64,000 bases of DNA from Actinomycetota bacterium (GCA_026003015.1 BPGL01000002.1:124001-188000), one strand, 5' to 3'. Shown: positions 6,244 to 9,736, numbered from the stretch's first letter. The notes: a model not told the origin generated them from the sequence alone. Program-made: numbers and translations.

Positions 6244-6319
6244 TGGTGGAGACGAGCGGACTCGAACCGCCGACCCCCTGCGTGCAAAGCAGGTGCTCTA
6301 CCAGCTGAGCTACGTCCCC
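6244..6319 (-). tRNA. tRNA-Ala(TGC)
   Basis: A complete cloverleaf on the minus strand. The acceptor stem GGGGACG pairs with CGTCTCC and includes the G3:U70 wobble that identifies alanine tRNAs. The anticodon loop CTTTGCACG holds TGC. The T-loop GGTTCGAGTCC is standard and the CCA end is encoded. It lies about 7.5 kb from tRNA-Ile(GAT); both sit on the gyrA side of the origin, as in many actinobacteria. The 237 bases between it and the coiled-coil gene hold no other gene that I can see. Confidence 0.97.
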
Positions 6320-6350: not shown

Positions 6351-6938
6351 TCAGGGTTCCGGGGGCGGCTCCGGTGAGGGTGAAGGGCTCGGGCTCGGGG
6401 ACATGCCCGGTCGGTACGTGAGCTCCGACCCCACGTCGGGAGCTCGATCGGCGCATCGCCCCTCGCACTCCCACCAGGTCTGCACCCACCACCGGTAGAA
6501 GGTCCTCGACGGCCCGAACGTCAGCGCGCGCAGGGGCAGACGCACCCATGCGGCACGCTCGCCGACCTTCTCGGCCGCCACCGCCCGCAGGTAGCGGTCG
6601 CGACCCGTTCCGGTCGCAACGCGCCACAGCGACCCCAGCAGCCGACGCCCGTCGGAGCGGACGACGACGAGGTGGTCCGCCGCTTCGTCGCCGCGCGTGT
6701 CGAGGAGCAGGTAGACCCAGCCGCGGTCCCACATCTGCCCCACGGTCCAGGGGTCGAACGTGATCACCGTCCACTCCGGCCCGGTGCCGGGCGGATCCTC
6801 GAACCGGACGACCCGCACGTCGAGCCGCCCGGGCGTGTCGTTCGGATCGAGGACCCGCTGCGGCATGATCGCGGCCCATGCCGCTGCGGCCACGACCGTG
6901 GCCAACGCCAGCGCGACAGGGGCGCTCCTGCGGATCAC
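6351..6938 (-). CDS. Secreted protein of unknown function, last gene of mau-like operon
   Basis: A 195-residue protein with an N-terminal signal sequence or anchor (APVALALATVVAAAAWAA), then a Trp-rich globular domain (DRGWVYLLLDTRGDEAADHL, RTFYRWWVQTWWECEGRC). It ends in a Ser-Pro repeat tail (SPSPSPSPEPPPEP). Its GTG start overlaps the stop of the mauE-like gene in GTGA, so it is translationally coupled. One Cys pair is visible near the end. I do not recognise the family. Its position suggests that it is an extracytoplasmic partner of the mauA-like protein. Confidence 0.7.
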   Translation of the reverse strand: MIRRSAPVALALATVVAAAAWAAIMPQRVLDPNDTPGRLDVRVVRFEDPPGTGPEWTVITFDPWTVGQMWDRGWVYLLLDTRGDEAADHLVVVRSDGRRLLGSLWRVATGTGRDRYLRAVAAEKVGERAAWVRLPLRALTFGPSRTFYRWWVQTWWECEGRCADRAPDVGSELTYRPGMSPSPSPSPSPEPPPEP

Positions 6939-8059
6939 CGGCGCCCCCCGAGCCTGAGCCAGCGGGCCGAGCGCCACGCGGTCCAGATCGCGACCCAGAG
7001 GCCCGCGAGCGCGAGCGCGGCCGGGAGCCGGTCGGCCGCTTCCGGGACCCCCGGCGACCACGCGAACGCCCCGTCCGTGGCCCCGGCCGCCCCGACCCCC
7101 GCGACGGCGGCGAGTGCGCCGTTGCGCACGAGCTGCGCCCACGCCTGCAGCGGCCGCCGCTCCCCGAAGCACCCGCACCCGAGCTCCCGGCCGAGGAGGA
7201 GGCGGGCGCGCACGATCTCGGCGCTGAAGACCACGAGCAGCCCGAGCGCCCACAGGCTCGCGGCGCGTCGCATCCCCACGATCGCGAGGATCGGCACGCC
7301 GACCTCCGCGAGCGGCACCGCCCACGCCGCCGCGCGCTCGAGCCGGACCGGCAGCCGCCGGGCCTGGAGCGCTCGGCGCCACCGGGCCGGCGCGACGAGC
7401 TTGGCCGCGCTCGACCACGCGAACGCCAGCGCGATCACCGCGACCGCGAGGGCCGACCATCCGCCCTGGCTGCGGGTCGCGGCAACCGCGGCCGCGACCC
7501 CGACCGCGACCAGCGCGAGGCCGTTGGTCAGGCGCCTCGGCCACTCCGGGCGACCCGCAAGCCGATCCACGAGCGCGCGGCCGTCGTCGTCCCGACCCAA
7601 CCGGCCGCCGGCGAGGGCGCCGAGCCCGCGGGCCAGGCCGAACGCGCCGAGCGCCACCGCGCCGAGCAGGGGCCGCCCGCTCGCGAGCGCGGCTAGCGCG
7701 ACGACGACGAGCGTGCCGTGCGCCAGGAACGTGAGGAAGCCGATCCCGAGCCCCGCGCCGTAGAGCAGGGCCGCGGTCGTCGGCCCGAAGAAGCTCCGCC
7801 ACCAGTCCGGGACCTGCCGACGCAGCTGCGGGACCGGCAGGCGAAGGTCCACGAGCTCGCCCAGGCCGTAGGCGGTCGCAGCGATCGCCACCGCAGCGGC
7901 CCCGGCTCGTCCCCACGGCGCGCCGAGGAGGGCGCCGATGCCGGCGAGCAGCCCCCCGAACGCCGCCCCCACGGCCGAAGCCGCGGCCGCGTGCGCGGCC
8001 CAGGCCGCGAGCCACCTGCCTCGGCCCCCGTGGACCACGGGGGTGATGGTCTCCACCAT
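6935..8059 (-). CDS. MauE-like redox membrane protein with extra N-terminal membrane domain
   Basis: A 374-residue integral membrane protein. The C-terminal half (from about residue 190) has the four-helix MauE/DoxX-like arrangement: FAWSSAAKLVAPARWRRAL, then PLAEVGVPILAIVGM and finally RELGCGCFGERRPL, the Cys-x-Cys segment typical of MauE-type proteins. The N-terminal half adds about five more helices, including ALLYGAGLGIGFLTFLAHG. That part resembles DsbD/CcdA-like transport helices only loosely. MauE is needed with MauD for disulfide formation in the methylamine dehydrogenase light chain. MauE proteins are usually about half this size, so this is a fusion or extended form. The gene sits in an overlapping operon with mauD- and mauA-like genes. 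Confidence 0.7.
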   Translation of the reverse strand: MVETITPVVHGGRGRWLAAWAAHAAAASAVGAAFGGLLAGIGALLGAPWGRAGAAAVAIAATAYGLGELVDLRLPVPQLRRQVPDWWRSFFGPTTAALLYGAGLGIGFLTFLAHGTLVVVALAALASGRPLLGAVALGAFGLARGLGALAGGRLGRDDDGRALVDRLAGRPEWPRRLTNGLALVAVGVAAAVAATRSQGGWSALAVAVIALAFAWSSAAKLVAPARWRRALQARRLPVRLERAAAWAVPLAEVGVPILAIVGMRRAASLWALGLLVVFSAEIVRARLLLGRELGCGCFGERRPLQAWAQLVRNGALAAVAGVGAAGATDGAFAWSPGVPEAADRLPAALALAGLWVAIWTAWRSARWLRLGGRR

Positions 8060-8068
8060 CGACAGCCC

Positions 8069-8149
8069 TCAGGGCCCGTAGCGCGCCGACCAGCCCGCGA
8101 CCGCCGAGGCGGCCACGAGCGCCGCGAGCACGGTCTGGTCCTCTAGCAT
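8069..8149 (-). CDS. Possible 26-residue membrane peptide
   Basis: A short frame whose ATG overlaps the stop of the mauA-like gene (ATGCTAG) and which ends ten bases before the mauE-like start. It encodes a charged start (MLEDQ), a hydrophobic helix (TVLAALVAASAVAGW) and a short basic end. The spacing fills a gap that would otherwise break the chain of overlapping genes, so it may be a coupled membrane peptide. Length alone gives little statistical support. Confidence 0.35.
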   Translation of the reverse strand: MLEDQTVLAALVAASAVAGWSARYGP

Positions 8150-8685
8150 CGCCGGTTCAGCTCCCGGTACCCAACGCAGAACACGCGCAGCCCCCTGGGG
8201 CAGTAGCCGCGCACCGCGGCGTCCCCGTTGATCCGGATCCGCGAGGTCGAGCAGCAGTCCATGATGTGGCGCAGCCGGCCCGAGCAGCATCGCGTCCACC
8301 CGCCCCCGTAGCGCGGGTTGCGCACGAACGGGTAGCGCATCGGAACGAGCTCCTGGCACGTGCGGTGGCGCACCTGCGTCTCGGGGTCGAGGTAGATCCG
8401 CCCCTCGTCGTCGACGGGGAACCCGAACGTCGGGTGCAGCGGCCACCCGCGACGGTTGACCCTCGTGAGCGGCGCGTAGGGGTGCGGGCAGGAGCCGGTC
8501 GTGTACGTGTGCCCACAGAAGTGGTGCGCCTCGGCCCGCGTCGGGTCGAGGGCCGCCGCGACGAGGCCTCCGCCGGCGAGCGCGACGATCGCCCGGCCGA
8601 GTCGGCCCAGGAACCCCCGCCGGCTCGTCCGCTGCGCGAGGGCCCGCTCGGCGAGCTCGGTCCGCGACAGCCTCAGCTCGCCCAC
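8143..8685 (-). CDS. Tat-exported Cys-rich protein, methylamine dehydrogenase light-chain-like (MauA)
   Basis: A 180-residue protein whose GTG start has GGGAGG upstream and overlaps mauD by 13 bases. Residues 20-45 are a twin-arginine signal (SRRGFLG then IVALAGGGLVAAAL), so it is exported folded. The mature part has ten Cys, with two CC pairs in GWTRCCSGRLRHIMDCC, and exactly two Trp after the signal (RRGWPLHP and GGGWTRCC). Methylamine dehydrogenase light chains are exported by Tat, rich in disulfides, and use two Trp to form tryptophan tryptophylquinone (TTQ). The flanking mauD and mauE genes support this family. Overall similarity is not strong enough to be sure it carries TTQ, and no heavy chain or mauG is nearby. 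Confidence 0.6.
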   Translation of the reverse strand: MGELRLSRTELAERALAQRTSRRGFLGRLGRAIVALAGGGLVAAALDPTRAEAHHFCGHTYTTGSCPHPYAPLTRVNRRGWPLHPTFGFPVDDEGRIYLDPETQVRHRTCQELVPMRYPFVRNPRYGGGWTRCCSGRLRHIMDCCSTSRIRINGDAAVRGYCPRGLRVFCVGYRELNRRC

Positions 8686-9182
8686 CGCTCGCCCTCCCGT
8701 CCGACCCGTGCCCGCGCCGTGTCCAGGATCCCTTCGAGCTGCTCGAGGTTGTTCACGGTCCCCTTCGCACGCACAACCCCGAGCTCGTCGAGGACGACGA
8801 CGAACGGCGTGCCGGGGACGTCCCACGCGCGTTCCGCCTCGGGGTCGTGGACGACGAGCGCCTCGACGCCGGCCGCGCGCGCCGCCGCCGGGATCGCGGG
8901 CGCGAGCTCACGACACACCGGACACGTCGGGGAGGAGAAGACGACGAGGCGCCTCGCGCCGGGCCCGCCGATCGTGACGCTGGTGCCGTCGTCGGCGAGG
9001 GCCTCGGTGGGGAGCATCCCCGCGCCGAGCTCGGGGCCCTCGTCGTCCACCTCGAGCGCGCCCCGCGGCCCGAGGCGCAGGTGCAGGGTCCCGACCTGTC
9101 GCGCCAGCGCCACGACGACCAGCGCGATGACGACGAGCAGCACCCACTGCACGACGAACGCCACGGCCCACCAGCCACTCAT
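8673..9182 (-). CDS. mauD: MauD-like thioredoxin-fold disulfide protein
   Basis: A 169-residue protein with one N-terminal membrane helix (AVAFVVQWVLLVVIALVVVAL). A thioredoxin-like domain follows, exposed outside the membrane, with the active-site motif SPTCPVCREL, the cis-Pro loop PGTPFVVVLDE and a GTVNNLEQLEGIL C-terminal helix. All are typical of MauD. MauD introduces or isomerises disulfides in the methylamine dehydrogenase light chain. Its ATG overlaps the stop of the upstream repeat-protein gene in ATGA, and its own end overlaps the mauA-like start. Confidence 0.85.
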   Translation of the reverse strand: MSGWWAVAFVVQWVLLVVIALVVVALARQVGTLHLRLGPRGALEVDDEGPELGAGMLPTEALADDGTSVTIGGPGARRLVVFSSPTCPVCRELAPAIPAAARAAGVEALVVHDPEAERAWDVPGTPFVVVLDELGVVRAKGTVNNLEQLEGILDTARARVGREGERWAS

Positions 9183-9736
9183 CGGATCGTGTGAGTGGCT
9201 CGCTCGTCGGCGTCCAGCAGCTGAACGAAGGGCGTCCCTTCGTCCGTCAGGCCCAGGAGCGCGCGCAGCTCGCCGCCCGGACCGAGGAGCCGCATGATCG
9301 GCGCCCCGTGGGCCGCGAGGCCCAAGCGCACCCGGACCTTCCCGCTCTGGTCGTACAGCCCGATCGTTGGGGACCCCTGCTCGGCCAGGGAGAAGCGCCG
9401 GATGAGCTCCCCGTCTTCCTCCCGGACCCCCAGCGTCGGAGAGGACTCGGGCGCGAGCCCGAACTTCGCGCGGATCTTGCCGTGGCGATCCCCGAAGGCG
9501 AGCGACGCCGACCCGTCGGCGGCCAGCCCGAAGGTCGCGCGCACGTGTCCCTCGCCGTCGGCGATGGCCAGGCCCGTCGCCCCATCGGGCTGCATGCCGA
9601 AGCGGGCCCGCACCCGTCCCTCGTCGTCGAGCATCGAGAGGAACGGTTGGTCGTTGGCGACCCCGATCCGCAGCCGAACCCGACCGTGCTCGTCGACGAC
9701 CTCGAAGCCCTCCGCACGCACAACGCGTCTCTTCAT
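9179..9736 (-). CDS. Protein made of about seven degenerate 22-24-residue repeats
   Basis: A 185-residue protein, first gene of the mau-like operon, that is almost wholly repeats. The unit reads roughly G-x-P-x-L-x-L-x-D-x2-G-x2-R-x2-[FL]-G, as in RVRARFGMQPDGATGLAIAD, HVRATFGLAADGSASLAFGD and KIRAKFGLAPESSPTLG. No signal peptide is visible. Such repeats suggest an elongated beta structure. I have seen the type in actinobacterial and planctomycete proteins without known function. The coupled position with mauD implies a shared role, perhaps as a cytoplasmic scaffold. Confidence 0.7.
   Translation of the reverse strand: MKRRVVRAEGFEVVDEHGRVRLRIGVANDQPFLSMLDDEGRVRARFGMQPDGATGLAIADGEGHVRATFGLAADGSASLAFGDRHGKIRAKFGLAPESSPTLGVREEDGELIRRFSLAEQGSPTIGLYDQSGKVRVRLGLAAHGAPIMRLLGPGGELRALLGLTDEGTPFVQLLDADERATHTIR

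Follow-up and report, generated by a model that had tools for sequence, protein, structure and literature searches.

In mau gene clusters, the disulfide-rich MauA subunit of methylamine dehydrogenase requires MauD and MauE, and the enzyme also requires MauF. We analysed a 64,000-nucleotide stretch of DNA from an Actinomycetota bacterium (GCA_026003015.1, BPGL01000002.1:124001-188000; hereafter the window) in which a minus-strand block at positions 6351-9736 consists of five genes that overlap in succession at their start or stop codons. Among them are genes for a MauD-like thioredoxin, for an exported protein with ten cysteines (the ten-Cys protein) and for a MauF–MauE fusion whose frame contains a UGA codon. 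We found it very likely that this UGA is decoded as selenocysteine (Sec), which would make the fusion a putative selenoprotein. We read the codon in this way because the gene forms one frame, this frame is homologous to MauF, Sec and Cys interchange at the site, a covarying hairpin is confined to UGA loci, and genes for Sec incorporation are present.

Several features link the block to described systems. The fusion resembles the MauF proteins of Paracoccus, Methylobacterium and Indioceanicola in homology over the full length of the membrane domain, in the position of their Cys and in having MauD and MauE as neighbours. It differs from them in the predicted replacement of Cys by Sec and in the fusion of MauF to MauE (in the family of the window) or to a propeller-like domain (in Thermoleophilia), and, unlike mau clusters with MauF, the system described here has no MauB, MauG or amicyanin. 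The ten-Cys protein is similar to MauA in its twin-arginine translocation (Tat) presequence, its many cysteines and the position of its gene directly after that of MauD, but it has ten cysteines rather than twelve and one conserved Trp rather than two. CcdA/DsbD_2 carriers are comparable as membrane thiol carriers in which a Pro-Cys motif lies close to the first helix. Two homologues showed very weak Pfam similarity to this group (E 0.09 and 0.12, below the cutoff), whereas the MauF domain conserves a single redox residue, and we treat the likeness as a lead.

The predicted Sec-MauF also shares UGA-encoded Sec, a bacterial Sec insertion sequence (bSECIS) and the existence of Cys homologues with catalogued prokaryotic selenoprotein families (PMC13188914), which include the rhodanese/DsbD fusion-like TsoB and a YeeE/YedE transporter; some of these are likewise membrane redox proteins. 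This 2026 inventory of 119 families contains no MauF- or MauE-type protein (PMC13188914). Our search of the open-access literature, with closed literature and preprints outside its scope, found no report of this Sec-MauF and a single passing mention of MauF. The gene therefore apparently represents an uncatalogued selenoprotein family that arose within a known membrane family, MauF. Its features are as follows.

Positions 6935-8149, minus strand: predicted selenoprotein MauF–MauE fusion of 404 residues with the TGA read as Sec27; MauF domain at residues 1 to about 225, MauE domain at residues 235-355; its ATG and the TAG stop codon of the ten-Cys gene overlap.
Positions 8069-8071, minus strand: in-frame TGA, predicted selenocysteine (Sec27), in the context GP-U-GLSMVETI.
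Positions 8025-8043, minus strand: predicted bacterial SECIS hairpin, CCCCCGU-GGUCC-ACGGGGG, with 7 bp and a 5-nt loop.

The original prediction, made from the DNA sequence, had described six overlapping frames here, including a possible tiny peptide and an enlarged MauE, and had not noticed the in-frame UGA. The block and its overlaps are real, but it holds five genes rather than six: the TGA interrupts one open reading frame that had been taken for a 26-residue 'peptide' and an 'enlarged MauE', and reading through this codon gives a single 404-residue protein. The MauE assignment held, with a match to PF07291 (E 2e-19, 70 bits against a cutoff of 27), but the 'enlargement' proved to be a MauF domain. 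Alignment of the recoded frame to MauF by hhalign gave a probability of 99.7 and an E value of 2.7e-25 over 225 columns, the full length of MauF. None of the NCBIfam models (June 2026) matched the MauF domain, and a fold search of the PDB with a model of the Sec protein returned no significant match.

Paracoccus MauF carries a Cys, in STWSPCGYSS, exactly at the position of the TGA. Across 46 distinct homologues with a readable codon at this site, we observed TGA in 28 and TGC or TGT in 18, with no TAA, TAG or other residue. The TGA and Cys forms have in common the motif SP(U/C)G(F/L)SM(V/I)ET and the aligned first helix that precedes it. In the homologue alignment, the Sec/Cys is the sole invariant redox residue of the MauF domain.

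The predicted SECIS hairpin has its stem start 25 nt and its loop start 32 nt after the TGA, and its 7-bp stem and 5-nt loop occurred in all 29 TGA loci compared. Pairing was found in 96.1% of cells in these loci; five of the seven pairs showed two-sided changes (20 such cells), and none of 500 shuffles gave covariation as high as that observed. By contrast, only 38.7% of cells at these columns were paired in 17 Cys loci, which did not exceed the level in shuffles. When the partner was shifted by 1-3 columns, pairing in the TGA loci fell to 40-66%. The codon used for Gly in the 3' arm was GGG in 27 of 28 cases, compared with 31% elsewhere in the same genes, although the sequences are related and the p-value is only indicative. 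The bSECIS model specifies a loop of 3-9 nt, a stem of 4-16 bp, a G in the first two loop positions and a distance of 16-37 nt from the UGA (PMC13188914). The hairpin agrees with it at 7 bp, 5 nt and 32 nt, with loops of GGUCC or CGUGU. We also considered a second hairpin, GAUGGU-GGAG-ACCAUC, 9 nt after the UGA. It was less specific (88.5% paired in TGA loci versus 70% in Cys loci) and is also coded by the conserved SMVETI, and it was set aside.

The genome of the window contains a tRNA-Sec (72 bits against a cutoff of 47, anticodon TCA), which ARAGORN also detected, and a SelD scoring 377 bits, over its cutoff. Both selC and selD are intact, and SelA is intact in relatives of this genome. SelA or tRNA-Sec was present in 25 of 29 genomes with the TGA form and in 10 of 19 with the Cys form (Fisher p 0.019, in a test that ignores kinship). 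Below its cutoff, the SelB search did not separate SelB from other elongation factors. In the tree, most Cys forms group in one Thermoleophilia clade; with locus L096 read as TGA, two changes between Sec and Cys remain. A Cys form at locus L027, whose genome (G014) is 99% complete and has no SelA or tRNA-Sec, branches within the Sec clade. Its hairpin has been lost, and we take it for a probable reversion from Sec to Cys.

The remaining genes of the block are the following.

Positions 9179-9736, minus strand: repeat protein of 185 residues, with about seven repeats of ~22 residues, (D/E)xxGxxRxxxG.
Positions 8673-9182, minus strand: MauD-like membrane-anchored thioredoxin of 169 residues with a CPVC active site; its ATG overlaps the upstream stop.
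Positions 8143-8685, minus strand: Tat-exported protein with ten Cys and two Trp; its GTG start overlaps the thioredoxin gene.
Positions 6351-6938, minus strand: secreted Trp-rich protein of 195 residues with conserved DPNDTxGxLDVR ... WDRGY ... LDT motifs.

The repeat protein, the Trp-rich protein and the Tat-exported protein with its ten Cys and two Trp had all been described in the original prediction and were recovered. Its view of the block as mau-like was borne out by MauD and MauE and extended by a MauF that it had overlooked. The MauD call held as similarity to TIGR02661 (E 8e-24), but the score of 84 bits lies below the equivalog cutoff of 188.6, and on its sequence this thioredoxin is MauD-like rather than an equivalog; its homologues have the CxxC in the alignment. 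We found no Pfam match for the Trp-rich protein and none in Pfam or NCBIfam for the repeat protein, which has no known domain. Homologues of the repeat protein are confined to the family of the window (f1), where they always precede the thioredoxin gene. The operon is closely followed on the minus strand by a tRNA-Ala (TGC) at 6244-6319.

The ten-Cys protein had been described as light-chain-like, with a quinoprotein as one possibility and lack of conservation of the two tryptophans named beforehand as a refuting outcome. We examined it as a possible light chain carrying tryptophan tryptophylquinone (TTQ). Across 48 sequences, the ten Cys were invariant (the last where the row is complete) and Trp129 (numbering from residue 2; W-x-R-C-C, by the CC pair) occurred in all 48, but position 80 was Trp in only two. 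TTQ is thus excluded in this protein, because only one of the two Trp is conserved. The protein did not match PF02975, and TIGR02659 matched only residues 9-36, in the presequence, with 15.8 bits. An AlphaFold model, with a predicted local distance difference test score of ~90 over much of the mature part, gave a best Foldseek match in the PDB of E 0.42, and none of the 50 matches listed was a light chain of methylamine dehydrogenase. A profile search of the family against the PDB returned nothing. Assignment of the protein as MauA is therefore unsupported by family or fold. The absence of MauB and MauG, which had been noted for the window, extends to the whole genome, in a search that detected the Paracoccus positive controls. 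The block probably matures a disulfide-rich exported protein other than MauA, one of the two options that the original prediction had offered.

The arrangement is not due to chance, because two Actinomycetota families (f1, which includes the window, and f5) conserve the block and it occurs in rearranged form in Thermoleophilia. Of 397 genomes sampled from the phylum, 31 gave a match to the ten-Cys protein, several of these matches being weak, and the protein was found at 55 named Actinomycetota loci, including those of Solirubrobacter, Conexibacter, Miltoncostaea and Gaiellaceae. These 55 loci were found with an alignment query; a single-sequence query of genome contigs gave none. At nearly all loci with continuing sequence, the membrane gene follows the ten-Cys gene. 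MauF is fused to MauE in f1, and it stands alone in f5, which has a separate, divergent MauE gene accompanied by a gene for the secreted Trp-rich protein. In Thermoleophilia, MauE is fused to thioredoxin, and the MauF domain runs on into an exported domain of ~220-280 residues that we call propeller-like from a weak TolB match; the members scanned gave no Pfam match for this domain. Loci with MauF and this domain occur in the Sec form (L113, L119, L125, L132, L133, L136, L138, L141, L142 and L144) and in the Cys form (L109 and L120-L143). The domain may act outside the cell as a partner for the ten-Cys protein; homology to MauB was not supported (hhalign probability 0.7%).

Some loci depart from these arrangements. 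At L048 (genome G079), a gene for a secreted, possibly propeller-like protein comes immediately after the ten-Cys gene and no MauF site was found, which we regard as a naturally simplified version of the block. At L042 / L016 (genome G115), in family f5, the ten-Cys gene is kept, no downstream MauF site is present and the thioredoxin gene is in pieces, reflecting either decay or assembly error. Other conserved neighbours in f5 (a phosphohydrolase, a LarE-like protein and GroEL) look unrelated to the block.

We consider it highly probable that the block is an oxidative-maturation operon of mau-type parts (MauD, Sec-MauF and MauE) centred on an exported protein that has ten Cys and one conserved Trp and is distinct from MauA. 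In such an operon, tRNA-Sec and SelB would decode the UGA at 8069-8071 as selenocysteine, directed by the SECIS hairpin just downstream. By analogy with mau clusters, the selenol or thiol at the SP(U/C)G site would exchange electrons with the CxxC of the MauD-like protein and also with the Cys motif of the fused MauE (CGCFG or CGCLG). MauD, MauF and MauE may then form or correct five likely disulfides of the ten-Cys protein outside the membrane, after its Tat export, and Sec would speed electron exchange or increase resistance to over-oxidation. The client, the direction of electron flow and the role of Sec in this scheme are inferred.

Several observations weigh against this account. SelA and SelB, which are adjacent at the start of a contig (G000:C2:780-5000, locus L153), are both frameshifted; this is probably an assembly error at the contig end, the alternative being decay of the Sec system. 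Four TGA-bearing metagenome-assembled genomes had no detected SelA or tRNA-Sec. Machinery and Sec state share phylogeny, and the tree offers only two or three independent pairs. The single-sequence folding energy is unremarkable (z -1.4 in the window), and the argument for a SECIS draws on covariation and on the difference from Cys loci. Only gene order points to the ten-Cys protein as the predicted substrate. Finally, the TGA and the GG that follows it give GAGG, 7 nt before a conserved ATG, making a stop and restart formally possible.

An alternative that we consider unlikely is that, as the ten-Cys protein matures, a new cofactor derived from Trp or Cys also forms on the invariant Trp129, with the propeller-like domain of Thermoleophilia replacing the heavy-chain partner. 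The single invariant Trp beside the CC pair, among ten invariant Cys, is consistent with this proposal, as is the propeller-like region after MauF, but the genome lacks the cofactor-forming enzyme MauG, and the propeller-like region does not match MauB and, in the family of the window, is not joined to MauF. There is correspondingly a slim chance that a Sec-powered membrane relay of MauD, Sec-MauF and MauE matures a new class of exported protein with a Trp/Cys-derived cofactor on its one invariant Trp and, in some lineages, a propeller-like domain as its partner, which would make it a second quinoprotein-like system assembled from mau parts.

It is very unlikely that the TGA is a true stop that ends a one-helix peptide of ~26 residues, with a restart at the ATG four codons on and MauF made as two chains. 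The GAGG and the ATG could serve as ribosome-binding site and start, and short coupled overlaps occur throughout the operon. However, a stop would not explain why all 28 distinct sequences use TGA and never TAA or TAG, or why the frame and the three intervening codons (mostly G-(L/F/I/M)-S) are kept. Cys forms and MauF are continuous at the site, Cys forms lack the covarying hairpin, and Sec machinery is present. A methylamine dehydrogenase-like TTQ enzyme with its heavy chain and MauG elsewhere in the genome is extremely improbable, as the gene order, the presence of MauD, MauE and MauF and the MauA-like Tat presequence are outweighed by the genome-wide absence of MauB and MauG, the lack of a PF02975 or fold match and the unconserved second Trp, by which this proposal is already refuted.

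The sampled genomes of the phylum include a high share with tRNA-Sec over the cutoff (206 of 397), and further unannotated selenoproteins in the phylum seem likely. Because standard annotation splits the MauF–MauE gene at the UGA, its proteins are mis-started in databases. The predicted selenoprotein would place Sec in MauF, a membrane maturation factor whose chemistry is poorly defined, and the alternation of Sec and Cys would identify the residue at which MauF is redox-active. The block also suggests that the set of MauD, MauF and MauE may serve a client other than MauA.

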